Shown: positions 8,857-36,299, numbered from the stretch's first letter. The stretch is DNA of 40,355 nucleotides from Syntrophus sp. GWC2_56_31 (GCA_001829875.1 MICN01000030.1:16354-56708), one strand, 5' to 3'. A program made the numbers and translations. Notes: generated from the letters alone by a model not told the origin.

Positions 8857-9591
8857 TCAGGTCTTGAGCTGTTCACTCGTCCTCCCAAACCTCCTCTCGC
8901 GCTTCTGATAATCTTCGACCGCCTTGAGGAGGTGGCGCTCGCGGAAGTCCGGCCAGAGCACCTCTGTAAAATAGAACTCGGTGTACGCCATCTGCCAGAG
9001 GAGAAAATTGCTGATCCGGTATTCACCGCCGGTCCTGATAAGCAGATCCGGATCCGGGAGCCCTGCGGTATAGAGGTAGTCGGCAAAAAGTTCCTTGGTC
9101 ACCTTTTCGGGGGTGATTTTCCCGGCCAGGCAATCGCCGACCATGCGTCGCGCGGCCGCGGCAATTTCATCGCGGCCGCCGTAACTCAAGGCCAGGATAA
9201 CGGTCATCCCCCTATTGCGGGAGGTTCTCGCCGATACTTCATTGATTTTGCTTAAGATCGGTTCTCCCAGCGAGTCCAGGTTACCGATAGCTACAAGACG
9301 GATATCCTGATCCATCATCTCCTGAACCTCGTTCTCAAGATATTCCTTAAGCAGATTCAGCAGCGCACTCACCTCGGCTTCCGGGCGGAGCCAGTTTTCC
9401 ATGGAGAAGGCATAGAGCGTCAGATACCGAATCCCGATCCGGCGGCATGTCCGGACCGCCGCCCGAACGGATTCGGCGCCATTCTTATGGCCCAGTATCC
9501 TCCCCATGGCATGCCGCTCGGCCCAGCGGCCGTTGCCATCCATGATGATCGCGATGTGCTTGGGAAGTCTTTTCAAGTCAATTTCTGTCAT
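8857..9591 (-). CDS. uppS: Isoprenyl transferase (undecaprenyl diphosphate synthase)
   Basis: LPKHIAIIMDGNGRWAERHAMGRILGHKNGAESVR...SFLLWQMAYTEFYFTEVLWPDF-type motif. Confidence 0.95.
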   Translation of the reverse strand: MTEIDLKRLPKHIAIIMDGNGRWAERHAMGRILGHKNGAESVRAAVRTCRRIGIRYLTLYAFSMENWLRPEAEVSALLNLLKEYLENEVQEMMDQDIRLVAIGNLDSLGEPILSKINEVSARTSRNRGMTVILALSYGGRDEIAAAARRMVGDCLAGKITPEKVTKELFADYLYTAGLPDPDLLIRTGGEYRISNFLLWQMAYTEFYFTEVLWPDFRERHLLKAVEDYQKRERRFGRTSEQLKT

Positions 9592-12599: not shown

Positions 12600-12724
12600 G
12601 ACGGCTTCGTAAAAAGGCCGCAGGCAAGGCGCGCGAATCCTGAGGAGTGAGGCGTACTTTTTCGTACGCCGCAATGACGAAGGATGAAGCGCAACGCAGC
12701 ATCCGGCCTTTTTACGAAGCCGTC
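12600..12724. repeat. Nested-palindrome repeat, full copy A
   Basis: GACGGCTTCGTAAAAAGGCC...GGCCTTTTTACGAAGCCGTC with central GGCGTAC-tttttc-GTACGCC; near-identical to copies at 23342 and 36175. Confidence 0.95.
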
Positions 12725-14056: not shown

Positions 14057-16576
14057 CTACTGTCCGCAGCACTTCTTATATTTTTTCCCGCTTCCGCAGG
14101 GACAGGGGTCGTTCCGACCAACCTTGGCCGTCTCCCGTCTGATCGTCGTCGACGCCGGGGTGTCCTCCCCCCGCGACATGATGTAATTCTGACGCCGCTT
14201 CTCCTCTATTCTTTCGACCTCTTCCTCGCGGCGGATCTGGACCATGCAGAGTTTTTCGATGCTGTCTTCCTTTATCCGGCTGATCATGTCCATAAACATG
14301 TCGTATCCCTCTTTCTGATACTCCCGGACAGGATCCTTTTGGCCGTAACCGCGCAGACCGATCCCCTCTTTGAGGTGGTCCATGGCAAGGAGGTTTTCCT
14401 TCCACTGCGTATCGATGGATTGAAGCATGATCATCTTCATGAGATAATCCATCAGCGGCGTCCCGAATTCCGCCTCCTTCTTTTTGAGGTGCGACATGAT
14501 TTCCGTGATGATCGTTTCCTGGGTCGTCTCCGGGGTGAGATCCCCGCTCTTTTCGGCGAGTCTGAGCTTCAGGGTAAAATGTCTGAAAATCCTCTCATCG
14601 AGGCCCTTGATATCCCATTGCTCGGGATGGCTTTTTTCATCGATATACTCCGGGACGATCCCTTCGACCATTTCTTCGACCATCTCCTCCACATCTTTCC
14701 AGAGCGCCTCTCCCTTGAGGACCTTTTTACGCTGCTCGTAGATCACTTTTCGCTGGCGGTTCATGACGTCATCGTATTCGAGCAGGTGCTTGCGGATATC
14801 GAAATTCTGTCCCTCGACACGCTTCTGGGCATTCTCGATCGCCTTGGAAATCAGCCGATGTTCGATCGGCTGTCCCTCCTCCATACCGATCCTGTCCATG
14901 ACCGAGGCGATCCGTTCGGCGCCGAATATCCTGAGGAGATCATCCTCGAGGGAAAGATAGAACCGCGACGACCCCATATCTCCCTGCCGCCCCGAACGGC
15001 CGCGGAGCTGGTTGTCGATGCGCCGGCTCTCGTGTCGCTCCGTACCGAGGATATGGAGACCTCCCAATTCTGCTACCCTCTCGCCCAGCTTGATGTCCGT
15101 ACCGCGGCCGGCCATGTTGGTCGAGATCGTCACCTGACCCGGCTGGCCGGCCTGGGCGACAATCTCCGCCTCGCGCTCATGATTTTTTGCATTCAACACG
15201 TGGTGTTTGATCCCCGCGCGGGTCAGATATTTACTCAGTAGCTCCGATTTCTCGATGGAGATCGTTCCGACGAGCACCGGCCGGTTGGCATCGTGCAATT
15301 GCCGGATCTCTTCGATGACCGCGGTGAACTTCTCCTTCTCGGTCTTGTAGATCACGTCCGAATAGTCCGTACGGATCATCGGCATATTGGTCGGAACCAC
15401 GACGACTTCGAGTTTGTATATCTTGCCGAATTCTTCCGCTTCGGTATCGGCGGTCCCGGTCATCCCCGCCAGTTTGCCATACATGCGGAAATAGTTCTGG
15501 AAGGTGATCGAGGCCATGGTCTGGTTTTCCGACTCGATCTTTACCCGCTCCTTGGCCTCGAGGGCCTGGTGCAGGCCGTCGCTGTACCGCCTGCCCGGCA
15601 TCACCCGACCTGTAAATTCATCGACGATGATGACCTTCCCCTCTTTGACGAGGTAGTCTACGTCGCGCTTGAATAGGGTGTGGGCCTTGAGCGCCTGATT
15701 GACGTGATGGAGAAGATCGATATTTCTGGGTTCGTAGAGATTCTGAACCTTGAGATTTTCCTCGACCCGCGCCACCCCTTCCTCCGTCAGGATGGAGGTG
15801 CGGCTTTTCTCATCGACCGTATAGTCCTTATCCTTTCTCAGTTGCGGTATGACCTGGTTCACCCGGGCGTATTTGTCGGTCGATTCGTCGGAGGCCCCCG
15901 AAATGATGAGCGGGGTCCGGGCCTCGTCGATCAGGATGCTGTCCACTTCATCGACAATGGCAAAGAAAAAGTCCCTCTGAACATAATCGTCCAGAGTGAA
16001 CTTCATGTTGTCCCGCAGATAGTCGAATCCGAACTCGTTGTTCGTCCCGTAAGTGATATCGGCGTGGTAGGCTTCTCTCCGCTGGTCGTCATCCATCCCG
16101 TGGACAATGACGCCGACGGTCATTCCCAGAAAATGATAGATCGGTCCCATCCAGGCGGCGTCCCTTTTGGCGAGGTAGTCGTTGACCGTCACCAGGTGAG
16201 CGCCTTTCCCCTCGAGGGCGTTGAGGTAGAGGGGCATCGTCGCCGCCAGGGTTTTCCCTTCGCCGGTTTTCATCTCGGCGATCTTCCCCTCGTGGAGGAC
16301 CAACCCCCCTATCACCTGGACATCAAAGGGCCGCATCTGGACCGTCCGTCGGGCCGCTTCGCGGGCAACGGCAAACGCCTCGACGAGGACATCGCCCATT
16401 TCAGCGCCGTTCTGAAGTTTCTCTTTGAAGTATGGTGTCTTCGCCTTGAGCTGCTCATCGGTGGCGGCCATCATGGCCGGTTCGAGGGCATTGATCTCCT
16501 CGAGGAACAGGGTGAGACGCTTCAGTTCTCTGTCGTTTCTGCTGCCGACAAGCTTTTTCAAAATGGCATGGAGCAT
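14057..16576 (-). CDS. secA: Preprotein translocase subunit SecA
   Basis: [40 protein letters not shown]-terminal SEC-C zinc motif [19 protein letters not shown]; 839 aa. Confidence 0.98.
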
Positions 16577-17673: not shown

Positions 17674-17705
17674 AACGCAGCATCCGGTCTTTTTACGAAG
17701 CCGTC
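17674..17705. repeat. Fragment D of the nested-palindrome repeat (right arm only)
   Basis: AACGCAGCATCCGGTCTTTTTACGAAGCCGTC matches the right 32 bp of copy A except for one substitution (GGcC vs GGtC). Confidence 0.85.
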
Positions 17706-17794: not shown

Positions 17795-19873
17795 ATGTCA
17801 AAATATGAATCAAAATCCATAAGAAACCTGGCAGTCATCGGTCATGGGGGAACAGGGAAGACCACTCTCTGCGAATCTTTCCTCTATATCGCCGGTAAGA
17901 CCGAACGGCCCGGCCGGGTTGATGAGGGAACCTCCTCCATGGATTATGAACCAGAGGAACAGAGGCGGCATGTGTCGATCGGCGCCGCCACAAACAATAT
18001 CGAATGGGAAAAACACCGGATCAACATCATCGACACGCCGGGTGATTCCAATTTTGCTTTTGATACCAAAAGCTGCCTCAGGATCGTGGACGCGGCCGTC
18101 GTCCTGGTCGACGCCGTCGGAGGTGTTGAATTTCAGACGGAAAAGGTCTGGGAATACGCGGATGAATTCAAGCTGCCCCGCATGATCTTTGTCAGCCGGA
18201 TGGATCGGGAGCGGGCCGACTTCGACACTGCGTTGGCAAGCATCAAGACCCGCCTGGGCAAGAAAGTTACGATCGCCTCGCTTCCCATCGGCGCTGAAAG
18301 CGCTTTTTCCGGGGTGGTGGATCTGATCTCCATGAAGGCCTTCATTTTTGACGGAGAGAGGCGAGCGTCAAAAACGGTCGATATTCCGGGCAACATGGCC
18401 GCAGAGGTCAAGAAGTGTCGCGACATCCTCATCGAGGATATCGCCGAGACCGACGACGAACTGATGAACAACTATCTCGAGACCGGCGAACTCAGCTCCG
18501 AAGATCTTAGAGCGGGGCTCCGCAAAGCGATGGTTTCCGGGGCGATCACCCCCGTCCTCTGCGGGTCCGCCCTGAATCACATCGGCATGACATCCCTGCT
18601 CGACACGATCGTGCAATTCTTTCCCTCGCCCATCGATCGAGGCCCGATCATCGGGAAAAAACCGGTCACCGGGGAAGAGGAAATCCGACTTCCGGAGGAA
18701 TCGGCGCCTTTTTCAGCTTTGGTCTTCAAGACTATCGCGGATCCGTATGCCGGTCGGCTTACCCTTTTCCGCGTCTATTCGGGCACGCTCAGCTCCGACT
18801 CCGGCGTCTTCAACGCATCACGGAAAATCACCGAGCGGATCGGAAATATCTTTTACCTGGAAGGAAAAATCCAGAAGCCGGTCACACAGCTCATCCCGGG
18901 CGACATTGCGGCCATCGCCAAACTCAAGGAAACATCGACCGGAGATACGCTCTGCGCAGAGAAGTCCTCGATTGTCTATCCCAAGGTCGAACCTCCCCAT
19001 GCGATCATTTCCTTTGCCGTGGAACCCAAAACCCGCGGCGACGAAGACAAGCTCGTCTCCTCCATCCATCGCCTCACCGATGAGGACCCCACCCTCACCT
19101 TCCATCGGGATGACCAGACAAGGGAAATGATCCTCTCGGGTCTGGGCCAGGTTCATATCGAAGTGATCGTGGAAAAGATGAAACGGAAATTCGGACTCGA
19201 AGTGAACCTGAAAACCCCGAAAGTCCCTTATAAGGAGACGATCAAGGGAAAGACGACCATTCAGGGGCGATACAAGAAACAGTCCGGCGGTCGCGGGCAG
19301 TTTGGCGACACCTGGCTTGAGATAGAACCCCTCCCCCGCGGCAGCGGCTTCGAATTCGCCGATCGGATCGTGGGCGGCGTGGTTCCTCATCAATACCGAC
19401 CCGCCGTGGAGAAAGGCATTGTGGAGGCCATGGCGGAAGGCGTCCTTGCCGGTTATCCGGTCGTGGATATACGCGTGTCGCTTGTCGACGGTTCCTACCA
19501 CACGGTCGATTCCTCCGAAATGGCATTCAAAATCGCGGGTTCCCTCGGTTTCAAGAAGGGCGTCCTCGAATGCCAGCCCACCCTTCTGGAACCCATCGTC
19601 AACATGAATATCGAAATCCCGGACGAGTACATGGGCGATGTCATCGGCGACCTGAACAGCCGCCGAGGCAAGGTTCTGGGAATGGATTCCGCGGGTCATC
19701 ACCAGATCATCAAGGGGCAGGTCCCTCTTGCCGAGATCCTGAAATACGCCCCCGATCTCCGTTCGATGACGAGCGGTCGCGGGACATTCACCTACGAACA
19801 CTCCCATTACGAAGAGATCCCCGCCTACATCGCCGAAAAAATCATCGCCGAATCAAAGAAGGAAGAGGCGTAA
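17795..19873 (+). CDS. Elongation factor G-like protein (divergent EF-G paralogue)
   Basis: 692 aa, EF-G domain architecture through the C-terminal domains (..IPDEYMGDVIGDLNSRRGKVLGMDS..); G motifs deviate: GHGGTGKTT, DTPGDSNF, SRMD. Confidence 0.9.
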   Translation: MSKYESKSIRNLAVIGHGGTGKTTLCESFLYIAGKTERPGRVDEGTSSMDYEPEEQRRHVSIGAATNNIEWEKHRINIIDTPGDSNFAFDTKSCLRIVDAAVVLVDAVGGVEFQTEKVWEYADEFKLPRMIFVSRMDRERADFDTALASIKTRLGKKVTIASLPIGAESAFSGVVDLISMKAFIFDGERRASKTVDIPGNMAAEVKKCRDILIEDIAETDDELMNNYLETGELSSEDLRAGLRKAMVSGAITPVLCGSALNHIGMTSLLDTIVQFFPSPIDRGPIIGKKPVTGEEEIRLPEESAPFSALVFKTIADPYAGRLTLFRVYSGTLSSDSGVFNASRKITERIGNIFYLEGKIQKPVTQLIPGDIAAIAKLKETSTGDTLCAEKSSIVYPKVEPPHAIISFAVEPKTRGDEDKLVSSIHRLTDEDPTLTFHRDDQTREMILSGLGQVHIEVIVEKMKRKFGLEVNLKTPKVPYKETIKGKTTIQGRYKKQSGGRGQFGDTWLEIEPLPRGSGFEFADRIVGGVVPHQYRPAVEKGIVEAMAEGVLAGYPVVDIRVSLVDGSYHTVDSSEMAFKIAGSLGFKKGVLECQPTLLEPIVNMNIEIPDEYMGDVIGDLNSRRGKVLGMDSAGHHQIIKGQVPLAEILKYAPDLRSMTSGRGTFTYEHSHYEEIPAYIAEKIIAESKKEEA

Positions 19874-19874
19874 G

Positions 19875-20396
19875 ATGGGATTTAAGGCCGTCATCATCAC
19901 CGTAAGCGACAAGGGGTCACGCGGCGAGAGGGAGGACGGGAGCGGTCCGGAGATCGCCGGTTTGCTCCAGGCAATGGGAATGGAGATCATCGCCAGGCGA
20001 ATCATCCCCGACGAAAAGGAGATGATCCGCCCGGCTTTGATCGAATGGAGCGAAACAGACAAAGCCGACCTCATCGTGACGACGGGAGGCACCGGCGTGA
20101 GCCCCCGAGATGTCACCCCCGATGCCACCCGAGAGGTCATCGAGCGGGAGATTCCAGGGATGGCGGAGGCCATGCGGCGTCAGAGCATGCTCGTTACCCC
20201 GCATGCGATGATCTCGCGCGCGCTCGTCGGTATCCGGGGCCGGACACTGATCATCAACCTTCCCGGCAGCCCGAAAGGGGCGCGGGAAAATCTCAACGTC
20301 CTGCTGCCCGCCCTCGCACATGCGATCGAAAAGATAAAGGGCGACCAGAGCGAATGCGCCTCCCGGGGTGCAGCGGGGCACGCCGAGGTGAAATAA
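19875..20396 (+). CDS. MoaB/MogA family molybdenum cofactor biosynthesis protein
   Basis: VIITVSDKGSRGEREDGSGPEIAGLL...DLIVTTGGTGVSPRDVTPDATREVIEREIPGMAEAMR...LIINLPGSPKGARENL. Confidence 0.92.
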   Translation: MGFKAVIITVSDKGSRGEREDGSGPEIAGLLQAMGMEIIARRIIPDEKEMIRPALIEWSETDKADLIVTTGGTGVSPRDVTPDATREVIEREIPGMAEAMRRQSMLVTPHAMISRALVGIRGRTLIINLPGSPKGARENLNVLLPALAHAIEKIKGDQSECASRGAAGHAEVK

Positions 20397-20402
20397 ATCC
20401 TT

Positions 20403-21251
20403 ATGAGCAATGACAAGATTATCCTCTCGGTTGCCACGACAGGCAGTTGGGCGCTCAAATCGCATAACCCTGCCCTGCCCATCACCCCTGGGGAGATTGC
20501 CCGGGCGGCGGTGGAGAGCTGGCGCGAAGGTGCCTCCGTTGTCCATGTCCATGTCCGGGATGATGCGGGAGCGATGAGTTGCGACCTGGCGAGATTCAGG
20601 CGGGTGAAGGAACTGATTCGCGCCCAGGGGTGCGATGCAATCATCAATTTCAGCACCAGCGGCGGGGCCGGTCGCGTGAACGAGGATGAGCGTTTCAACA
20701 GCCTGGCCGCCGGACCGGAACTGGCATCGCTCGATGCCGGCTCGATAAACTTTAACGAGCGCGTCTTTTTGAATTCACCGGATTTTCTTGAGGAACTGGC
20801 CAGACGTATGCTGGAGGCCCATGTTAAACCGGAAATCGAGGCCTTCGACAGCGGCATGATCGGCAACGCCATGACGCTCATAGAGAAGGGATTGATCAAA
20901 ACGCCCCTCTGGTGGCAGTTCGTCCTCGGTGTGAAGGGGGGCGCCGCGGCCACGGTACGTTCGCTGGTTCATCTGGTGGAGAGCTTGCCCGCAGGTTCGC
21001 TGTGGTCCGTCTGTGCCGTAGGGTGGCGTCAGCTGCCTCTGAACGTGCAGGCGATCGTGATGGGCGGGCACGCCCGTACCGGTCTGGAGGATAACCTGTA
21101 CTACAGACGGGGCGAATTGGCCCAAAGCAACGCTCAATTGGTGGCCCGTCTTGCCCGGATTGCGCGTGAGTGCGGCCGCGAACCGGCCACCCCCAACGAG
21201 GCCCGGGAGATCCTTGGACTGACCGGGACAGGAGGATCACTATCTCCATGA
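20403..21251 (+). CDS. 3-keto-5-aminohexanoate cleavage enzyme family protein (BKACE, DUF849)
   Basis: KIILSVATTGSWALKSHNPALPITPGEIARAAVESWREGASVVHVHVRDDAGAMS; HVHVRD metal-site motif and EIEAFDSGMI present. Confidence 0.9.
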   Translation: MSNDKIILSVATTGSWALKSHNPALPITPGEIARAAVESWREGASVVHVHVRDDAGAMSCDLARFRRVKELIRAQGCDAIINFSTSGGAGRVNEDERFNSLAAGPELASLDAGSINFNERVFLNSPDFLEELARRMLEAHVKPEIEAFDSGMIGNAMTLIEKGLIKTPLWWQFVLGVKGGAAATVRSLVHLVESLPAGSLWSVCAVGWRQLPLNVQAIVMGGHARTGLEDNLYYRRGELAQSNAQLVARLARIARECGREPATPNEAREILGLTGTGGSLSP

Positions 21252-22195
21252 CAGAAATACGCAATGTAACCATCATCGGAGCGGGTACCATGGGCCATTC
21301 GCTTGCCCAGGTCTTTGCCCAGGAAGGGTGCAGCGTCTGGCTGACCGATCTCCGGGAAGAAATCCTTTCAAACGCAAAAAAGCTCATCGCCTCAAATCTC
21401 CGTACCCTGATAGAGATGAAGCTGCTGAAAAAGAGCCGGCTCGCCCAGACGCTGAACCGGATTAAAACAACCACGACGATCGAAGAGGCTTGCAGGAATG
21501 CGGACCTTGTCATCGAGGCGATCATCGAGGATGTTGCGGCAAAAAAAGAGCTGTTCGGGCGGTTGGATCGCATCGCTCCGCCGCAAGCCATTCTGGCCAG
21601 CAACACTTCCTACCTGGATATTTTTAAATTCGTGGAGACCAGGAGACCGGACAAGGTGCTCATCACCCACTGGTTTGCCCCGCCGCATATCGTTCCCCTA
21701 GTCGAGATCGTTCGCGGTCCCGAGACTTCGCAGGAGACCGTCGATCGGGTGACGGTTCTGATGACCAAAATGGGGAAGACGCCGCTTGTGATTTCCAAGT
21801 TCCTACCGGGCTTCATCGCCAACCGGCTTCAGAGCGCCCTAAACAATGAGGTGCTCCACCTCCTGGATAACGGATATGTCACCCCCGAGCAGATCGATGC
21901 GGCGACCAAGGCAAGTTTTGGTTTGCGAATGCCCATCCTGGGCCTGACGAAAAGGATGGATTACACCGGCCTCGACCTCACCCAGAAAATTATCGCTAAC
22001 GCGGCGTACGAAGCGCCGCCGCGGCGGACCCGATCCGTGACGGTCGACCGGCTGGTTTCCGAGGGAAAGCTCGGGGTCAAAACCGGGAGCGGATACCATC
22101 AGTACGGTGGCCGTTCCACCGAAGAGATCATGAAGGAACGGGATATCAAGCTGATCAAACTGCGTGAATTTCTCAAGGGGATTGGAGAACTGTAA
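21248..22195 (+). CDS. 3-hydroxyacyl-CoA dehydrogenase family protein
   Basis: NVTIIGAGTMGHSLAQVFAQEGCSVWLTDLR Rossmann motif; LASNTSYLDI; HWFAPPHIVPLVEIVRGPETS; PGFIANRLQSALNNEV. ORF-track start 21170 is an extension; ATG at 21248. Confidence 0.9.
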   Translation: MTEIRNVTIIGAGTMGHSLAQVFAQEGCSVWLTDLREEILSNAKKLIASNLRTLIEMKLLKKSRLAQTLNRIKTTTTIEEACRNADLVIEAIIEDVAAKKELFGRLDRIAPPQAILASNTSYLDIFKFVETRRPDKVLITHWFAPPHIVPLVEIVRGPETSQETVDRVTVLMTKMGKTPLVISKFLPGFIANRLQSALNNEVLHLLDNGYVTPEQIDAATKASFGLRMPILGLTKRMDYTGLDLTQKIIANAAYEAPPRRTRSVTVDRLVSEGKLGVKTGSGYHQYGGRSTEEIMKERDIKLIKLREFLKGIGEL

Positions 22196-22212
22196 AGAGA
22201 GGACGTGGAATA

Positions 22213-23343
22213 TTGAGTCGAGAATGGAGATTGATGCAGGGTAACCAGGCGATGTCGGAAGGCGCCATTTATGCCGGGGCGAAATTCTTTGCCGGCTATC
22301 CGATAACACCCTCTTCTGAAATCGCCGAGGAATGTTCCAAGGTCATGCTCAAAATCGGCGGCATCTACATGCAGATGGAAGACGAAATAGCCAGTATTGC
22401 AGCGGTGATCGGGGCTTCGCTGGCCGGGGCCAAGGCATTCACCGCGACGAGCGGCCCCGGTTTTTCACTGATGCAGGAGAACCTCGGACTTGCGGTCATG
22501 GGAGAAGTCCCCTGCGTGGTGATCGATGTCCAGCGGCGGGGACCGAGCACCGGCCTGTCGACAAAACCGGCGCAGGGCGACGTCATGCAGCTTCGATGGG
22601 GCCGTCACGGCGATCAGGCGGTGATCGCCCTTTGCCCCGCGACGGTGGCCGAATGTTTTTTCATGACGGTCAAGGCATTTAATTTTGCGGAAAAATTCCG
22701 TGTCCCCGTGATCGTGGCGCCCGATGAAATTATCGGCCATATGCGCGAGAATTTTTCCCCCCCCGCTCCGGGCGAGGTGGAGGTGGTCGACAGGAAAACC
22801 CCTTCCGGCCCCCCGCGAGAGTACTTGCCATTTACAGCCGACCCGGACGGTGTGGCGCCTCTGGCATCTTACGGGAGCGACTACGTATTCCATGTGTCGA
22901 GCTCGATGCATGGTCCCGACGGGTGCAGCAACAACGATCCCGACAACGCCGCCTGGCGGGTGGCCCAACTGCACAGGAAGATCGAGATGCACAGGGACGA
23001 GATTGTCATCTGCAAAACCTTTTCCACGGAGGATGCGGACATCCTGTTGATCGCCTATGGTGCAACCACGCGTGCCAGCCGCGCCGCGGCATTGGAGCTC
23101 CGGAAGCGAGGGGTCGGAGCCGGCGTCCTGCAACTGATCACACTCTGGCCTTTTGCCGACAAGGAAGTGGCAATGCTGGGCGCCCGGGCAAAGGCGGTAA
23201 TCGTGCCGGAGATGAATTATGGCGGTCAGATCGCCGGCGAGGTACAGAAGGTCCTCGGAAGCGGGGCGGATATCAGAAGGGTCAATAGCTACAATGGTGA
23301 GATCATCACACCGCAGGACATTTTGCAGGTCATGAAAATGTAA
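22213..23343 (+). CDS. 2-oxoacid:ferredoxin oxidoreductase subunit alpha (KorA/VorB-like)
   Basis: MQGNQAMSEGAIYAGAKFFAGYPITPSSEIAE; ATSGPGFSLMQENLGLAVMGEVPCVVIDVQRRGPSTG. TTG start 22213 or ATG 22234. Confidence 0.92.
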   Translation: MSREWRLMQGNQAMSEGAIYAGAKFFAGYPITPSSEIAEECSKVMLKIGGIYMQMEDEIASIAAVIGASLAGAKAFTATSGPGFSLMQENLGLAVMGEVPCVVIDVQRRGPSTGLSTKPAQGDVMQLRWGRHGDQAVIALCPATVAECFFMTVKAFNFAEKFRVPVIVAPDEIIGHMRENFSPPAPGEVEVVDRKTPSGPPREYLPFTADPDGVAPLASYGSDYVFHVSSSMHGPDGCSNNDPDNAAWRVAQLHRKIEMHRDEIVICKTFSTEDADILLIAYGATTRASRAAALELRKRGVGAGVLQLITLWPFADKEVAMLGARAKAVIVPEMNYGGQIAGEVQKVLGSGADIRRVNSYNGEIITPQDILQVMKM

Positions 23344-23464
23344 GGCTTCGTAAAAAGGCCGCAGGCAAGGCGCGCGAATCCTTAGGAATGAGGCGTACTG
23401 TTGCGTACGCCGCAATGACGAATGATGAAGCGCAACGTGGCATCCGGACTTTTTACGTAGCCGT
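23342..23464. repeat. Nested-palindrome repeat, full copy B
   Basis: AAGGCTTCGTAAAAAGGCCGCAGGCAAGGCGCGCGAATCC...GGCGTAC-tgttgc-GTACGCC...GGACTTTTTACGTAGCCGTT; outer arms slightly decayed. Confidence 0.93.
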
Positions 23465-23485
23465 TGGGTTGAGAGGGGGAAATAC

Positions 23486-24319
23486 GTGGCACACGCTACA
23501 GGCACAAAATATCTGAAAGACGGGGTCTTGCCGCACATGTGGTGCTCGGGTTGCGGGATCGGCGTCATGCTGGGCGCCATGCTGCGGGCATTCGAGGAAC
23601 TGGATTACAAGAGATCCGATACAGTCGTCGTGACGGGGATCGGCTGCACGGGGAAGGCCGACGATTATCTCGTCACCAACGCCCTGCACACCACGCACGG
23701 CCGAGCCCTGCCGTACGCCACGGGGATCAAGGCCTTCAATCCGAGCCTGCACGTGGTGGTTTTGATGGGTGACGGCGACAGCGTGACGATCGGCGGGAAC
23801 CACTTTATCCATGCGGCCCGACGGAATATCGATCTGACGGCGATTGTCATCAACAACTTCAACTACGGCATGACGGGCGGTCAGGTTTCCGGCACCACGC
23901 CGGGGGGACGGTTCACCAGCACCACCTCCTGGGGAAATCCGGAACGCGATTTCGATATCTGCGCCCTGGCCGAGGTCGCCGGCGCCAATTATGTCGCCAG
24001 AGAGACGCCATACCACGGCTGGGAATTGAAGGAGCACATCAAGGAAGCCCTAAACAAGAGGGGGTTTTCGCTCGTCGAGGTCTTCAGTCCCTGCCCCACC
24101 CATTTCGGCAAGAACAACGAAATGAAGCAGACCAGGGAAATGCTCGACTGGTTCAAGATGAGAGGATTGCCCGCCGATCGTTACAGAAAACTGGATGATG
24201 AGGAAAAGAAAAACCATTTTGCCATCGGAAAGCTTGTCGATCGGGATAACCCGGACTTCACCACCCGTTATGAAGAGATCAGAGAAAAGGCGATCAGAGG
24301 TTCAAAGGAACAGGCATGA
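23486..24319 (+). CDS. 2-oxoacid:ferredoxin oxidoreductase subunit beta (TPP-binding)
   Basis: GVLPHMWCSGCGIGVMLGAML; VVLMGDGDSVTIGGNHFIHAARRNIDLTAIVINNFNYGMTGGQVSGTTP (TPP motif GDGD..NN). GTG start. Confidence 0.93.
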   Translation: MAHATGTKYLKDGVLPHMWCSGCGIGVMLGAMLRAFEELDYKRSDTVVVTGIGCTGKADDYLVTNALHTTHGRALPYATGIKAFNPSLHVVVLMGDGDSVTIGGNHFIHAARRNIDLTAIVINNFNYGMTGGQVSGTTPGGRFTSTTSWGNPERDFDICALAEVAGANYVARETPYHGWELKEHIKEALNKRGFSLVEVFSPCPTHFGKNNEMKQTREMLDWFKMRGLPADRYRKLDDEEKKNHFAIGKLVDRDNPDFTTRYEEIREKAIRGSKEQA

Positions 24320-24882
24320 AGATAAAAAATAACGAAAAACGATACGAAGTCATCCTGGCCGGATCGGGGGGTCAGGGGCTTGTACTTTCCGGCATCATGC
24401 TGGGCGAGGCGGCGGTGCTGGAAGGCAGGGTGGTCGTCCAGACGCAATCATACGGAATAGCCAGCCGCGGGGGCTTGTCCCTGGCCGAAGTGATCATCGA
24501 TCGGGAGGAGATTGTCTATCAGCAGGTGCAGACGCCGGACATCATCCTGACGCTGACCGAAGAGGCCCTGGAAAAGTTCGCCCCTTATGCGGACAAAGGG
24601 ATCGCGATTTTTTACGATACGACACTCGCGAAGGTCCGAACCGGGGAGTATTTGACCGGTTATCCCTTCACGCAGATCGCCAGCGACCTGGGGAATGTCG
24701 GTTCCGTCAACATCCTTTCGCTGGGGGCGATGATTACTGCGCTCCCGATGGTAAAGACTGAAAGCCTGGCCCAGGTGATCCGGAAACGCTTCCGGGGACA
24801 GGCCCAGGAGATGAATCTAGCGATGCTGCAGGCGGGCGCGGACCTGATCAGAAAGGGAGAGAGAACGTGGGAACCATCTTGA
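24316..24882 (+). CDS. 2-oxoacid:ferredoxin oxidoreductase subunit gamma
   Basis: YEVILAGSGGQGLVLSGIMLGEAAVLEGRVVVQTQSYGIASRGGLSLAEVII; overlaps beta stop. Confidence 0.92.
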   Translation: MKIKNNEKRYEVILAGSGGQGLVLSGIMLGEAAVLEGRVVVQTQSYGIASRGGLSLAEVIIDREEIVYQQVQTPDIILTLTEEALEKFAPYADKGIAIFYDTTLAKVRTGEYLTGYPFTQIASDLGNVGSVNILSLGAMITALPMVKTESLAQVIRKRFRGQAQEMNLAMLQAGADLIRKGERTWEPS

Positions 24883-26471
24883 AGGGGAAGAAATCGACGG
24901 CCCCTTGCCGGGAGGCCTGCCCGGCGGGGATCGATGTCCCCCGTTATATCCGGCATATCAGAGCGGGACAATTTACCGAGGCGCTTGAGGTGATCCGGGA
25001 GCGTATCCCGTTCCCCTTTGTCTGCGGCTACGCCTGCGTCCACCCCTGCGAGACGAAATGCGCGAGGCTTCAGTTCGATGAAGCGGTTGCCATCCGGATG
25101 CTCAAAAAAGTGGCTGCAGAGAAAGGCGCGCAGAAACCGGCGCGGATCGCCAAACGGCCGCCCAGCGGAAAAAAGGTGGCCGTTATCGGTTCCGGCCCAT
25201 GCGGGCTGACCGCCGCCTACTACCTGGCCGGTCAGGGACACCGGGTAACCGTTTATGAAGCGCTTCCCCTCCCGGGAGGGTTGCTGCGCTACGGTATCCC
25301 GGAGTATCGCCTGCCCGTGAAGATCGTGGATCGGGAGATCGAATCAATCCGTGCAAACGGAGTCGAGATCATCACGGGAGCGCCCATCGCGTCGGCGGCT
25401 TCCCTTCGGGAGAAGGGTTTTGATGCGGTCTTCGTGGCGACAGGCGCGTGGAAATCGGTGAAGATGGGGATACCCGGCGAGGATTCGCCTGGCGTGATCG
25501 ACGGCCTCGCTTTCCTCCGTCAGGTGAACGAAGGCAACGCGCCGGCGATCGGGCGGAGGGCGGTTGTTGTGGGGGGGGGCAATACGGCGATCGACGCCTC
25601 ACGTGCATCGGTCCGCCTCGGGGCCGAGGTCGTACAGCTCTATCGACGGACCCGCAAGGAAATGCCGGCCGGCGACGAAGAGATTGTCGAGGCCATCGAG
25701 GAAGGTATCAGCATCGACTATCTGGCGGCGCCGGTGAGGATCGAAAAAGGCCGGGTGACCTGCACCCGGATGCGGCTCGACAAGCCCGATGCGACCGGCC
25801 GTCGGGCGCCGGTTCCCGTTGCCGGCAGCGAGTTCAGCCTGCCGTTCGATACACTGATCATGGCGATCGGTCAGTCGGCGGATGCCGGGTCGCTCCATCT
25901 TGAAGAGGAAAATAACGGGGCGGTTCGGGTGGATCGGGGCAATCTCGCCACGTCACAGAGGGGAATCTTCGCCGGTGGCGATGCGGTCAGCGGACCTTCG
26001 ACAATCATCGAGGCCATCGCCCAGGGAAGACTGGCCTGCGTTTCCATCGACCGTTTTTTGGGGGGAACGGGGAATCTCGCGGAGGCTCTGTCTGAAGAGT
26101 CGACGCTGGCCCTCCCCGATACGGCGCCGCGAGGCACGGAGCGACCGGTGACCAAGAAAATCCCCAAGAAACGGCGATCCGGCACATTCGATCCTGTGGA
26201 GCTGTCATATACGAAAAAAGCCGCCATGGCGGAAGCCGAACGCTGTCTCTCTTGCGACCTCTGCGACTTCGACGTGTTAATCAATGGTCTTATCTGCAAA
26301 GACTGTGGCTACTGCCGGGAGGTGTGCAGCCTCGGCATTTTCGAACAGTCGGCGGATTTCAATCCCAGCGGCTATAAACCGGCCATCGCGGTACACACCG
26401 ATCAATGCATCGGTTGTCTGCGCTGTCTTTATATCTGCCCGGATTTTGCCATTACGATTCAAGAGCGATAA
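24867..26471 (+). CDS. GltD-like NAD(P)/FAD-dependent oxidoreductase fused to a C-terminal 2[4Fe-4S] ferredoxin domain
   Basis: CREACPAGIDVPRYIRHIRAGQF..; KKVAVIGSGPCGLTAAYYLAGQGHRVTVYEALPLPGGLLRYGIPEYRLP; C-term CKDCGYCREVC ... CIGCLRCLYIC. Confidence 0.92.
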   Translation: MGTILKGKKSTAPCREACPAGIDVPRYIRHIRAGQFTEALEVIRERIPFPFVCGYACVHPCETKCARLQFDEAVAIRMLKKVAAEKGAQKPARIAKRPPSGKKVAVIGSGPCGLTAAYYLAGQGHRVTVYEALPLPGGLLRYGIPEYRLPVKIVDREIESIRANGVEIITGAPIASAASLREKGFDAVFVATGAWKSVKMGIPGEDSPGVIDGLAFLRQVNEGNAPAIGRRAVVVGGGNTAIDASRASVRLGAEVVQLYRRTRKEMPAGDEEIVEAIEEGISIDYLAAPVRIEKGRVTCTRMRLDKPDATGRRAPVPVAGSEFSLPFDTLIMAIGQSADAGSLHLEEENNGAVRVDRGNLATSQRGIFAGGDAVSGPSTIIEAIAQGRLACVSIDRFLGGTGNLAEALSEESTLALPDTAPRGTERPVTKKIPKKRRSGTFDPVELSYTKKAAMAEAERCLSCDLCDFDVLINGLICKDCGYCREVCSLGIFEQSADFNPSGYKPAIAVHTDQCIGCLRCLYICPDFAITIQER

Positions 26472-26486
26472 AACAGGAGAGAGAAA

Positions 26487-27923
26487 ATGGGACTGATGAC
26501 TAAGGCGGAATATATCGAGTCGCTCCGGCGAATGAAACCTACTGTATACATGTTCGGCGAGAAGATTGAAAACGTGGTGGATAACCCGCGCCTGCGGGCC
26601 GGCATCGAGGCCACCGGGGCCACCTATGAACTGGCCGAGTCCCCCGAGCATCGCGACCTGATCGTGACCCACAGCACATTGACCGACAAGCCGGTCAACC
26701 GCTTCAATAAACCGCCCGAATCCGTCGCGGACCTGGTCGCCCGGGTCAAGATCAATCGTCTGCTGGGCCGGCGCGTCGGCACCTGTTTCCAGAGATGCAC
26801 CGGCCTGGACTGCCTGGTCGCGCTGTCCGTGACGACCTACGACATCGACCGAAAGTACGATACCCAGTACCATCGGCGGTTCACCGATTTTTTGAAACAT
26901 ATGCAGAAAAACGATTTTACGGCCAATGCGGGGGTGACCGACGTCAAAGGGGATCGGAATCTTAGTCCCAAGGATCAGGCGGACAAGGATGTGTACCTCC
27001 ATGTGGTCGAGAAGCGCGATGACGGCATCGTTGTGCGCGGCGCCAAATGCCATCAGACCGGTTCGTTGTCGGCGCACGAGATTATCGTTCTGCCCACCCG
27101 GGCCCTGCGCAAAGGGGAAGAGGAGTTCGCGGTGGCCTTTGCCGTTCCGAGCGATACGGCGGGCATCATTCACGTTGTCGGCCGCTCGAGCCTGGATACA
27201 AGGGAGCAGGACGGTTGCGACTGCGGCAACCAGCGGTATTCCAAATACGCCCCAACCGTTATCTTGGACAACGTCTTCGTCCCCTGGGAGCGGGTTTTTT
27301 TGTGCGGCGAGTGGGAATTCGCCGCCGATCTGGTGGCCTATTTCTCCGCCTTCCACCGCCAGAGCCATGGCGGCTGCAAGGCCGGCAAGATCGACTGCAT
27401 GGTGGGGGCGGCCCTGACCATGATGGAGTACAACGGCACTCAGAAGGTCAGCCACCACAAAGAAAAGGTCACCGACATGATCCATCGCGCCGAGACCTTG
27501 TACGGTTGTTCGTTGGCCGCCTCTTATGAGGGCAGGCGAATGCCGTCCGGCACGTATTTTATCGATCCGGTTTTAGCCAATGCGTCCAAGATTCACGAGG
27601 GAAAAGAGATGGCCGAGGCGACCCGGCTGATGATCGATATCGCCGGCGGTTTTGTGGCAGACCTGCCTTCCGACCGGGACTTTGACCATCCCGCGGTCGG
27701 CCCGCTCCTGAAGAAATATCTCAAAGGGGTCGAAGCGACGCCGGTCGAAAACCGGGTTCGGATGTTCCGCCTGATCGAAAAGCTTGCGATGGAAAGCGCC
27801 GATACGATTTCCGATATTCACGGCGGTGGTTCTCCGGCGGCGCACCGGCTCACCATCTTCCGGGAATCGAACAACGAGGCTAAGGTAACGGCTGCAAAAA
27901 GGCTGGCCGGAATCGATGAATGA
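26487..27923 (+). CDS. 4-hydroxybutyryl-CoA dehydratase / 4-hydroxyphenylacetate 3-hydroxylase family protein with apparently conserved [4Fe-4S] ligands
   Basis: 478 aa; CFQRC (Cx3C) and HRQSHGGC (Hx6C) match the C99/C103/H292/C299 ligand spacing known for AbfD. Confidence 0.85.
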   Translation: MGLMTKAEYIESLRRMKPTVYMFGEKIENVVDNPRLRAGIEATGATYELAESPEHRDLIVTHSTLTDKPVNRFNKPPESVADLVARVKINRLLGRRVGTCFQRCTGLDCLVALSVTTYDIDRKYDTQYHRRFTDFLKHMQKNDFTANAGVTDVKGDRNLSPKDQADKDVYLHVVEKRDDGIVVRGAKCHQTGSLSAHEIIVLPTRALRKGEEEFAVAFAVPSDTAGIIHVVGRSSLDTREQDGCDCGNQRYSKYAPTVILDNVFVPWERVFLCGEWEFAADLVAYFSAFHRQSHGGCKAGKIDCMVGAALTMMEYNGTQKVSHHKEKVTDMIHRAETLYGCSLAASYEGRRMPSGTYFIDPVLANASKIHEGKEMAEATRLMIDIAGGFVADLPSDRDFDHPAVGPLLKKYLKGVEATPVENRVRMFRLIEKLAMESADTISDIHGGGSPAAHRLTIFRESNNEAKVTAAKRLAGIDE

Positions 27924-28089: not shown

Positions 28090-29943
28090 TTATGCCGTAA
28101 TGGGCCCGCAGGTTTCGCCGCGGGATTTGCGCCACTGGTTTGCCAGGACGATGGCATACAGGAAGAGCCCGGCGATATCGGTGATCCAGCCCGGCTTGAT
28201 CAAGGCAAACGCCGCGACAAACAGGACGACCCGCTCCCAGTGAGCCGTGTGGCACAGGTAATACCTGTGCAGCGAGCCGGCGAGGCAGGTGACCCCGAGC
28301 AGCGCGGTGGCTATCGCCAAGACCACCCTCGGCCATGAGCCGATCATGAGCAGCGACGGCGAAAACACGAACATGAACGGCACGATGTAGCCGGTGGCGC
28401 CCAGCTTCACCGCCGCCCATCCGGTCTCCCACAGCGCTGACCTGGATATTCCAGTAGCGGCGTAAACCGCCAGGGCGACCGGCGGCGTGATGGCCGACAG
28501 GATGGCGAAATAAAAAACGAACAAATGTGCAGCTTCCGGCACGATCCCCAGCTTGATCAGCGCCGGTACCAGCAAGGCCACCTGGATGATGTACGCGGGG
28601 GTGGTAGGCAGCCCCATGCCGAGGATGATGCCGGCGATCATGGTGAGCATCAGGGCGGGGATCAGGTGTTCCTGGGCAACGGTAAGTACAATCCCCGTAA
28701 ACGACAGGCCGAGCCCGGTCTGGGCGATGGAGCCGATGACGATCCCGGCGCAGGCGCATGCCATCGCGATCGACAGCGTGTTCAAGGCGCCGGCCTCAAG
28801 CGCTGAAATCACTATTTTGACGGTGATTTCAGGCCGGGTGCTCTTACGCAGCATGGCCACGGGCACCACCGAGATGATGCCTAAAAGCGCGGCGTAGGGT
28901 GCGCTGTAGCCGGCGATCAGCACACCGACGATGATGAACAGCGGGATGAACAAATGGCCGCGCTCTTTGAGCACCGCGCCGAGCTTCGGGAGCTCTTCCC
29001 GGGGAAGTCCCATCAAGCCCGTTCGTTTGGCCTCGAAGTGGACCGCGGCGTAGACGGCGACATAGTAGAGCAGCGCCGGGAACAGCGCGTAGCCGGCTAC
29101 CGCGATGTAGCTGACGCCGAGAAACTCCGCCATCACGAATGCCGCCGCGCCCATGATGGGCGGCAGGATCTGGCCACCGGTCGACGCCACTGCCTCGACG
29201 GCGCCGGCGAACGCAGGACGGTAACCGAGGCGCATCATCATCGGGATGGTGAATGTGCCCGTCGTCATCACATTGGCGACCGCGCTGCCGGAAATCGTGC
29301 CGAACATGCCGCTGGTGATAACCGCTACCTTTGCCGGACCGCCGACCGCGTGGCCGGTGATGCTCAATGCGAAATCCATGAAGAGCTTGCCGGTGCCGCT
29401 GCGCTCCACCAACGCCCCGAACAGGATAAACAGGATGACGTAGGTCGCCGAGACGTTTAGCGGAATGCCGAAGATCCCCTCGGTGGTCAGGTAGTTGATC
29501 TCAATCACCGATTCGGGGCGCACCCTGGCGATGAACAGGGCGTAGGCAACGAAAACCAGGGCGGTGATCGGCAGCGCCAGTCCGATCACGCGGCGCGTTG
29601 CCTCCAGCACCAGGACCATAAAGATGGCGCCGAAGACAAGGTCCGCCGTCCTCAGATCATCGACGTACACAAAACGGTCGTAGAGATAACCGACATTGAG
29701 CCACAGATAGCCTACGGTCACGAGCGAGAGCGCCACCATAAGGTAGTCGGAGAGCCCCGGTTTGGCTCCCTGCCGTCCGAATCGGGGATGGATCAGAAAC
29801 GTCAGGACCAATGCCAACAAAAGATGGGTACCGCGAAAGAAAAAGGCCTCGGGCGGCCCGATATAGGCAACCGTGAGGTGATAGACCGACATGCCGACCG
29901 CGAGCACAAGAATGCCCGCCTTGAGAATACGCTCAAAAGACAT
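28090..29943 (-). CDS. TRAP transporter fused permease (4TM/12TM, DctQM-type, TAXI-associated)
   Basis: 617 aa highly hydrophobic; MTTGTFTIPMMMRLGYRPAFAGAVEAVASTGGQILPPIMGAAAFVMAEFLGVSY is typical of TRAP fused permeases. Confidence 0.93.
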   Translation of the reverse strand: MSFERILKAGILVLAVGMSVYHLTVAYIGPPEAFFFRGTHLLLALVLTFLIHPRFGRQGAKPGLSDYLMVALSLVTVGYLWLNVGYLYDRFVYVDDLRTADLVFGAIFMVLVLEATRRVIGLALPITALVFVAYALFIARVRPESVIEINYLTTEGIFGIPLNVSATYVILFILFGALVERSGTGKLFMDFALSITGHAVGGPAKVAVITSGMFGTISGSAVANVMTTGTFTIPMMMRLGYRPAFAGAVEAVASTGGQILPPIMGAAAFVMAEFLGVSYIAVAGYALFPALLYYVAVYAAVHFEAKRTGLMGLPREELPKLGAVLKERGHLFIPLFIIVGVLIAGYSAPYAALLGIISVVPVAMLRKSTRPEITVKIVISALEAGALNTLSIAMACACAGIVIGSIAQTGLGLSFTGIVLTVAQEHLIPALMLTMIAGIILGMGLPTTPAYIIQVALLVPALIKLGIVPEAAHLFVFYFAILSAITPPVALAVYAATGISRSALWETGWAAVKLGATGYIVPFMFVFSPSLLMIGSWPRVVLAIATALLGVTCLAGSLHRYYLCHTAHWERVVLFVAAFALIKPGWITDIAGLFLYAIVLANQWRKSRGETCGPITA

Positions 29944-29979
29944 AAGGGTTCACCACAGCGCTAAAGTAACGGGACACAC

Positions 29980-30017
29980 GACGGGCCACAGCAGGCATGT
30001 GCGTTCTGTGGCCCGTC
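29980..30017 (-). promoter_or_regulatory. Intercistronic stem-loop between TAXI SBP and TRAP permease genes
   Basis: Perfect 12-bp stem GACGGGCCACAG / CTGTGGCCCGTC, 14-nt loop, no immediate poly-U. Confidence 0.7.
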
Positions 30018-30026
30018 TTACGGAAA

Positions 30027-30980
30027 TTACTGGATGACTTTGGCTTCCTTGTAGTATTTCAGAGCACCCGGGTGATAGGGCACGCCGATATCAGTCGCCA
30101 TATCCTTGGCTGTGAGGCCTTTGACCGCATTGACCACATTGCCGAGGGTGTCGACGTTCTGCACCAGGGCCTTGGTGATTTTGTAAACCGTATCTTCGGG
30201 CACCTTGCTGCTGACGATCAGATGCGTCCAGGTGCCGATTGTCTGGATATCCCTGGTCTGCTTGGGATAACTTCCGGCCTTGATGATGCGCTTGTCATAG
30301 CCGCCGTTTATCTTCTGCAATGCTTTGAGCTTGTCGTTGGGGATCTCCAGGACAACAATATCGCGGGCGCTCGCCAGATCCATCACCGATGAGGCCGGCA
30401 CGGTCGTGATGAGCGTGTAGACATGGGCCTGGCCGTCCTTCATCTGCGCCACCGAATCGTTATAGGAACCGTGGCTGACCTTGGACATTTTTGCATAGCT
30501 CAGGCCATAGACCTCCAGCGTTTGACGCGTCATCTGCTCGCCGGTGTTGCCCTTCTGCTGCGTCGTCAATCCCTTGCCTCCAAGATCGGCAGGCGTCTTG
30601 ATCCCGGCGTCCGCCAGGGCCACCATGTGGAAATACTGGAAGTACAGCGTGGCGAGCTGGCGAACATTGTCGGTTTTTGCATCGAATGGGGCGCGCCCGT
30701 TTACGCCGTCAACCGTGGATACCCCGTTGCCGAAACCAAGCTCGGCTTTGCCGGTCTGCACACCCTTGACGTTCGAAATACCGGCGCCGGGCAATACCAT
30801 CACGGTAGTGCCGGGAACGTTCTTCTCGATGATGTTCTGGATAGCCCCGCCCAGCGGATACCATGATCCGCCCTGCGGGCCGGTCATCATCTTGAGCTGC
30901 GCCGCCGATACAACGCCGGCCCCCAGCAGGACAGCGGTCACCGCTGCCGCAAACACCTTCATCGTAAATCGCATCTTCAT
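30027..30980 (-). CDS. TAXI family TRAP transporter solute-binding subunit
   Basis: Signal peptide MKMRFTMKVFAAAVTAVLLGAGVVSAA; LKMMTGPQGGSWYPLGGAIQNIIEKNVPGTTVMVLPGAGISNVKGVQTGKAELGFGN. Confidence 0.94.
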   Translation of the reverse strand: MKMRFTMKVFAAAVTAVLLGAGVVSAAQLKMMTGPQGGSWYPLGGAIQNIIEKNVPGTTVMVLPGAGISNVKGVQTGKAELGFGNGVSTVDGVNGRAPFDAKTDNVRQLATLYFQYFHMVALADAGIKTPADLGGKGLTTQQKGNTGEQMTRQTLEVYGLSYAKMSKVSHGSYNDSVAQMKDGQAHVYTLITTVPASSVMDLASARDIVVLEIPNDKLKALQKINGGYDKRIIKAGSYPKQTRDIQTIGTWTHLIVSSKVPEDTVYKITKALVQNVDTLGNVVNAVKGLTAKDMATDIGVPYHPGALKYYKEAKVIQ

Positions 30981-36174: not shown

Positions 36175-36299
36175 GACGGCTTCGTAAAAAGGCCGCAGGC
36201 AAGGCGCGCGAATTCCGAGGAGTGAGGCGTACTCTGTCGTACGCCGCAACGACGAGGGATGAAGCGCAACGCAGCATCCGGGCTTTTTACGAAGCCGTC
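36175..36299. repeat. Nested-palindrome repeat, full copy C
   Basis: GACGGCTTCGTAAAAAGGCC...GGCGTAC-tctgtc-GTACGCC...GGGCTTTTTACGAAGCCGTC. Confidence 0.95.

Follow-up and report, generated by a model that had tools for sequence, protein, structure and literature searches.

4-Hydroxybutyryl-CoA dehydratase (4HBCD, AbfD) performs a rare kind of chemistry: Tyr296, Glu455 and Glu257 reportedly start its radical reaction and are essential, a radical start that is said to be without precedent in anaerobic radical chemistry. Among the 2-oxoacid oxidoreductases, the 2-oxoglutarate:ferredoxin enzymes (OorDABC/KorABC; 8ys5, 1yd7) comprise KorA, KorB, KorC and a delta-type ferredoxin, and the NADH-dependent phenylglyoxylate dehydrogenase, PadEFGHI, combines a 2-oxoacid oxidoreductase with a flavoprotein subunit that uses NAD. 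In C. scatologenes, the triacetate-forming dehydrogenase (CsTfD), a 3HCDH-family enzyme, lacks K56 and N221 and keeps S117, H138 and N188, and its partner, the triacetate acetoacetate-lyase (CsTAL), is a beta-keto acid cleavage enzyme (BKACE) with Trp in place of Glu14 (PMC10470551). Here, we analyzed a locus of Syntrophus sp. GWC2_56_31 in which seven genes encode relatives of these enzymes side by side, ending with an AbfD-like enzyme (positions 20403-27923 of a 40,355-nucleotide stretch, GCA_001829875.1 MICN01000030.1:16354-56708; the whole stretch is called the window below).

The gene cluster probably breaks down a hydroxy- or oxo-acid anaerobically, and we give about an even chance to its being a composite locus for carboxylate degradation, built of sub-modules A (Kor, flavoprotein and AbfD) and B (BKACE and dehydrogenase), which can be separated. 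Each enzyme is a member of a known family, and the locus is a real, partly conserved and undescribed combination of such enzymes; neither this combination nor an AbfD subfamily with exchanged catalytic residues was described in the literature searched, most subscription journals lying outside its coverage. An initial annotation of the same DNA is partly supported: what stands up to closer comparison is a locus for anaerobic catabolism, in a genome that is Syntrophus-like, with a BKACE, a dehydrogenase able to supply its beta-keto acid and a 2-oxoacid oxidoreductase; the proposed union of all of these in one linear pathway does not.

An AbfD subfamily with exchanged catalytic residues

The AbfD-like enzyme was compared in the residue numbering of 1U8V with an alignment of its subfamily (60 rows, the window being counted twice) and a canonical comparison set of 24 sequences. 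The Fe-S ligands C99, C103, H292 and C299, as well as T190 and K300, are kept in 60/60 subfamily rows, and Q101 is kept in all except the divergent L064 (G-numbers stand for genomes, with G000 the window's own and the others related genomes, L-numbers for compared loci and C for contigs). These residues and the fold are common to the subfamily and the 4-hydroxybutyryl-CoA dehydratases of C. aminobutyricum (1U8V) and N. maritimus (6VJR); the structure model of the AbfD-like protein (pLDDT 89.9) has a TM score of 0.95 to 1U8V, with 42-45% structural-alignment identity. In contrast, Y296 is replaced by His in 60/60 rows, E257 by Cys or Ala in all 59 readable rows, and E455 by Ser in all 58 rows that reach this position, the protein of the window having Ala, His and Ser at 257, 296 and 455. 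The canonical sequences have E/Y/E at 257/296/455 in 24/24 cases, including a separate canonical copy on contig C19 of the window's own genome, which is the third AbfD-type copy there. Other differences fixed in the subfamily are Lys at 255 and 303, Arg at 336, His at 372 and Glu at 376. The initial annotation's 4HBCD-like enzyme is thus borne out in fold and Fe-S ligands but not in the three catalytic residues, whose loss makes the predicted product, crotonyl-CoA, unsafe to infer. An HpaB-type monooxygenase was also considered and rejected, since the Fe-S ligands speak against it and the best NCBIfam model, HpaB-1, reaches 174 of 480 bits.

It is conceivable that the enzyme is an ordinary 4-hydroxybutyryl-CoA dehydratase that tolerates these substitutions, the locus taking 4-hydroxybutyryl-CoA to crotonyl-CoA. 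The shared fold and structural identity and the full retention of the Fe-S ligands, Q101, T190 and K300 in the window's protein would fit, and position 456, which lies beside a three-residue deletion and is Asp in 55/58 and Asn in 3/58 sequences, may stand in for E455. We nevertheless consider this unlikely, because the three reportedly essential residues are replaced subfamily-wide, the same genome carries the separate canonical copy, and a Kor route to 4-hydroxybutyryl-CoA would require 5-hydroxy-2-oxopentanoate, an unusual compound. We give somewhat less than even odds to the reading that the subfamily is a distinct radical flavo-iron-sulfur lyase/isomerase, which would start its radical chemistry without the Tyr296-Glu455 pair and act on dicarboxylyl-CoA or another non-4-hydroxybutyryl CoA ester. 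Syntrophic and sulfate-reducing bacteria would then have an anaerobic pathway for 2-hydroxy/dicarboxylic acids that has not been described, with this enzyme at its center.

The subfamily also differs from 4-hydroxybutyryl-CoA dehydratase in its neighbors, which are Kor, SucCD-like or 2-hydroxyacid enzymes. Neighborhoods were compared at 74 loci, including one canonical copy and a few contigs taken twice, with a co-occurrence radius of 7 kb. SucC/SucD-like ligase genes, in most cases together with one for a GntR regulator, accompany the subfamily at 28 loci, korABC at 19, and LhgO/GlpA-like, FAD oxidoreductase and DUF1667 genes at 9-11, while CaiB-type CoA-transferases are a further class of neighbor. 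Kor and SucCD-like genes were never found together within 7 kb of a subfamily AbfD at these loci, and in the AbfD tree the two labels interchange at least five times, with three changes of the Kor label forced by well-supported branches. The KorA proteins adjacent to AbfD fall into at least three clades, and the Kor of the window forms a fully supported clade of its own. A second locus in the window's genome (L085, on C128) encodes a D-2-hydroxyacid dehydrogenase, KorD, KorABC, an 83%-identical AbfD and a LarA fragment; its Kor is of another lineage, KorA and KorB being 43-47% identical to those of the window. The Kor-AbfD association is real, and the repeated, independent pairing of AbfD with alternative acyl-CoA-forming enzymes, which is our best evidence, suggests that the AbfD-like enzyme uses one acyl-CoA made by several routes.

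Enzymes of 2-hydroxyacids recur near the subfamily AbfD, namely D-2-hydroxyacid dehydrogenase at 12 loci, Ldh2 at 7, LarA-like proteins at 8 and LhgO/GlpA-like proteins at 11. The LarA-like protein belongs to nickel-pincer (NPN) isomerase group 22 (NF052515, over cut-off; e.g., L018:13747-15015), a group for whose function no description was found in the literature searched, and the 2-hydroxy acid of this isomerase may be the pathway substrate. Several other genes were observed around these loci. A conserved protein of ~285 residues without a Pfam match (L018:12853-13716, cluster c23; also in L022, L024 and L042) recurs in kor-abfD loci, and the opposite strand at the C128 locus carries arylmalonate decarboxylase/Asp-Glu racemase-type genes. 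On contig C18 of G126 (L099), an AbfD (87%) lies beside two CaiB-type CoA-transferases, a TctAB transporter and an acyl-CoA carboxyltransferase-type gene. Glutaconyl-CoA decarboxylase was rejected as the next step; a carboxyltransferase of the superfamily is near AbfD at L099, but a search of the other AbfD loci found no homolog within 7 kb.

Two separable parts of the locus

Among 155 genomes of the order, close BKACE orthologs (77-83% identity) were found in 8 other genomes, every one in the window's family. KorABC-flavoprotein is linked to BKACE in 7/8 of them (~20 kb apart in G119), the TAXI-TRAP transporter is linked in 6/8 (G122, G133, G135, G137, G126 and G119), and an orthologous dehydrogenase adjoins BKACE in 5/8, G122 with a mere remnant of it included; these counts are lower bounds, some contigs ending inside the cluster. 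AbfD adjoins the module in 1/8 (G122); where it occurs elsewhere in the family, it is on other contigs. The dehydrogenase gene of G122 (G122:C63 = L007:1506-1918, between BKACE and korA) is a remnant, in which a large internal deletion has left codons 1-31 and 245-316 and removed about two thirds of the codons. In G126, BKACE and dehydrogenase are present and Kor is not at the locus. The co-occurrence that the initial annotation proposed to survey thus extends beyond the kor genes to BKACE, the flavoprotein and the transporter. AbfD, however, does not belong firmly to the conserved set, and the locus consists of two separable parts, not one fixed pathway.

In the single linear pathway, a beta-hydroxy or beta-keto acid would be processed in turn by the dehydrogenase, BKACE, Kor and a 4HBCD-like step, the products being acetoacetate, crotonyl-CoA and reduced ferredoxin. 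This pathway agrees with the co-directional, tightly spaced genes and with the BKACE-Kor-flavoprotein linkage, but is quite unlikely given that the only ortholog genome with an adjacent AbfD has a broken dehydrogenase, that G126 has the BKACE-dehydrogenase pair without kor at the locus, and that the catalytic residues of AbfD are altered. An accidental neighborhood, in which AbfD was recently inserted beside a functionally unrelated Kor-BKACE locus, is very unlikely as well. Such an event would account for AbfD standing at this site in the window and G122 only, for the repeat element inside the operon and for the broken dehydrogenase of G122; however, the same AbfD subfamily is joined to Kor proteins of three or more separate lineages, a second Kor-AbfD locus exists on C128 of the same genome, and only 15 bp separate the AbfD-like gene from the flavoprotein gene.

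Where the locus is larger, it also encodes a D-2-hydroxyacid dehydrogenase, a DapA-family protein, a second 3HCDH protein, an AMP-forming acyl-CoA ligase and an Ldh2-type dehydrogenase. Contig C2 of G119 (L094, L111, L123) carries a large island with SucCD-like, korABC-flavoprotein, TAXI-TRAP, UxaA-, DapA- and Ldh2-type genes, BKACE-dehydrogenase, FadB and thiolases; despite this island, no member of the AbfD subfamily was found in the G119 genome. The DapA-, UxaA- and Ldh2-type genes of G119 and G133 hinted at a 3-deoxy sugar acid pathway, which was rejected for want of a consistent set.

The host of the window is a draft genome of 2.06 Mb, 78% complete, whose genus group is shared with Syntrophus sp. 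SW.007. The coordinates of the seven genes (Table 1) were borne out by translation, and a Pfam search matched their products to the families given, far over the cut-offs. Eight contiguous co-directional genes had been counted from the EF-G-like gene; the seven metabolic genes are as described then, but a moaB/mogA-type gene was overlooked, so that there are nine. The EF-G-like and moaB/mogA genes also precede BKACE in the sister genomes G125 and G126, and because the downstream genes differ in G126, we regard both as chromosomal backbone outside the pathway. The TAXI/TRAP genes on the opposite strand (28090-30980) are counted as module members because of orthology, the permease ortholog in G119 adjoining korABC-flavoprotein. 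Spacing is tight, with overlaps of 4 to 16 bp and gaps of 1 to 18 bp, the exception being the 142-bp korA-korB gap, which holds one copy of a 121-bp repeat; further copies lie at 12603-12723 and 36178-36298 of the window, with a partial one at 17674-17704, and sister genomes have 9-45 matches. In the window, no structured RNAs or riboswitches were found at Rfam gathering scores, promoter-like sites were not more numerous than in shuffled sequence, and a terminator scan found no clear operon end.

Table 1. Genes and other features at the locus, in window coordinates
Feature	Coordinates	Strand	Evidence or remark
EF-G-like gene	17795-19873	+	contiguous, upstream of moaB/mogA-type gene
moaB/mogA-type gene	19875-20396	+	between EF-G-like gene and BKACE; missing from the initial annotation
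BKACE	20403-21251	+	PF05853, 340 bits
3HCDH-family dehydrogenase	21248-22195	+	PF02737/PF00725; start ATG 21248
KorA, 2-oxoacid:acceptor oxidoreductase alpha subunit	22213-23343	+	NF006412, 498.7 bits vs cut-off 411
121-bp genomic repeat in korA-korB gap, REP/MITE-like, inverted ends	23344-23468	+	42 matches in G000; not part of function
KorB, thiamine pyrophosphate (TPP)-binding beta subunit	23486-24319	+	PF02775
KorC, gamma subunit	24316-24882	+	PF01558
GltD-like NAD(P)/FAD flavoprotein fused to C-terminal KorD-type 2x[4Fe-4S] ferredoxin domain	24867-26471	+	PF14691, PF07992, Fer4
AbfD-like enzyme, divergent subfamily with 4HBCD fold and Fe-S ligands	26487-27923	+	residue alignment, structure model
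TRAP transporter 4TM permease, convergent	28090-29943	-	81% identity to G119 ortholog
TAXI-family solute-binding protein of TRAP transporter	30027-30980	-	82% identity to G119 ortholog; G135 homolog matches TIGR02122

The Kor-flavoprotein unit and the BKACE-dehydrogenase pair

Among solved structures, KorA (1yd7 best, then 8ys5) and KorB are nearest to 2-oxoglutarate/2-ketoacid enzymes, a resemblance that does not fix specificity, and the best NCBIfam model for KorB is the 2-oxoglutarate:ferredoxin oxidoreductase beta subunit, below its cut-off. The flavoprotein ends in 65 residues that correspond to the delta ferredoxin subunit of 2-oxoglutarate:ferredoxin oxidoreductase (match over residues 470-532), and the KorABC(D) complement of alpha, beta and gamma subunits and a (fused) delta ferredoxin is present. 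Judged from these matches, korABC and the fused flavoprotein would make up a complete 2-oxoacid oxidoreductase with a built-in NAD(P) route. The locus departs from OorDABC/KorABC in the fusion of the delta domain with a GltD-like FAD/NAD(P) protein, which suggests direct reduction of NAD(P). The ferredoxin domain expected by the initial annotation is there, but since it is fused to an NAD(P)-type flavoprotein, the electrons may leave as NAD(P)H and not as free reduced ferredoxin. An NAD-using flavoprotein beside a 2-oxoacid oxidoreductase also recalls PadEFGHI, from which the locus differs in its fused delta subunit and in Kor subunits that score far under the Pad models (PadG 67.5 of 700, PadI 46.2 of 700 and PadE 44.4 of 300 bits), and a phenylglyoxylate-type enzyme was rejected. 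Other families of the phylum also have korABC-flavoprotein as a unit, with neither BKACE nor AbfD adjacent (L124-L128); at one of these loci it is accompanied by LarA, a D-2-hydroxyacid dehydrogenase and a tricarboxylate-type transporter.

The BKACE keeps the Zn ligands H46/H48/E230 and the catalytic residues E143, R226 and D231, and is predicted to be active-site-competent. The position of Glu14 in Kce is Trp in the BKACE of the window and in six orthologs. Compared with HBD of C. butyricum, the dehydrogenase has Leu for K56, Ala for N141 and Arg for N221, and keeps S117, H138 and N188. Both proteins agree in these residues with the published features of CsTAL and CsTfD (PMC10470551), and the pair probably acts on a free, uncharged beta-hydroxy acid; a free acid is favored over a CoA ester because the dehydrogenase lacks the CoA-binding residues. 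Two described BKACE functions were rejected, the scores being under the cut-offs and Glu14 being lost: Kce of lysine fermentation (NF052387, 331.7 bits against a cut-off of 382), in which Glu14 serves the 5-amino group, and 3-oxoadipate BKACE.

The same residues raise the question of whether sub-module B serves anaerobic phloroglucinol degradation as its triacetate branch, with the two enzymes acting as triacetate-forming dehydrogenase and triacetate acetoacetate-lyase. The Trp at Glu14, the loss of K56 and N221 and the retention of S117, H138 and N188 are what this function would predict, but the Trp may mean merely an uncharged substrate, and the model for 3,5-dioxohexanoate:acetyl-CoA transferase (NF053538) gives 216 bits against a cut-off of 430. 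No phloroglucinol reductase or cyclohydrolase was found near the pair in the window, and G135 (95% complete), which has the BKACE-dehydrogenase pair, has zero matches to the PF04199 cyclase in its whole genome. Because of these two absences, phloroglucinol is not supported as the source. We consider the triacetate branch very unlikely. Unlike a phloroglucinol-degradation cluster, the pair is linked to Kor, the TAXI-TRAP transporter and 2-hydroxyacid enzymes. Elsewhere in the window's genome, contig C122 carries two PF04199 cyclases (at 9386 and 28026) and a broken BKACE fragment (at 14170).

Proposed route and its meaning

The gene content, the residue changes and the repeated Kor-AbfD association were directly observed, whereas each reaction of the composite locus and the way it runs, the substrate and the acceptor of the electrons are inferred. 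In sub-module A, the TAXI-TRAP transporter would import a hydroxy- or oxo-carboxylate, 2-hydroxyacid dehydrogenases, encoded beside Kor in relatives, would form a 2-oxoacid from it, and KorABC would oxidatively decarboxylate this to an acyl-CoA, with the electrons passing to NAD(P)+ via the fused flavoprotein-KorD. The AbfD-like enzyme, with FAD and [4Fe-4S], would then convert the acyl-CoA to an enoyl-CoA by gamma-elimination or a double-bond shift; in other genomes, the same acyl-CoA would come from the free acid by SucCD-like or CaiB-like activation. Because the active site lost two Glu and gained a His, the acyl-CoA presumably carries a carboxylate or other anionic group, and dicarboxylyl-CoA would be likelier than 4-hydroxybutyryl-CoA. 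This preferred substrate class, which is suggested by the SucCD-like partners, the TRAP/TTT transporters and the charge change among the catalytic residues, is the weakest part of the argument. In sub-module B, the 3HCDH-family enzyme would oxidize a free 3-hydroxy acid, and BKACE would convert the resulting beta-keto acid with acetyl-CoA to an acyl-CoA and acetoacetate. The two sub-modules would share the transporter and the locus.

Several points weigh against this scheme. D456, one residue off the lost E455, could restore an acid there, and the loop with S442 and D443 in the structure model, which bears on this question, is of low confidence. The subfamily also gained acidic residues at other positions, so that the idea of an anionic substrate, drawn from residue positions in the sequence, is tentative. 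The 2-oxoglutarate-like KorB would imply succinyl-CoA, and we know of no AbfD-type chemistry on succinyl-CoA. Several genomes have sub-modules A and B at one locus, and the two may be coupled in some way outside the proposed scheme.

A natural AbfD subfamily, present in dozens of genomes, in which the Fe-S site is kept and all three residues are replaced, allows the mechanism of 4HBCD to be tested directly and suggests a new reaction. Its partners, which alternate between Kor, SucCD-like and CaiB-like enzymes, offer a concrete means of narrowing down the substrate and of closing a gap in syntrophic carbon metabolism.

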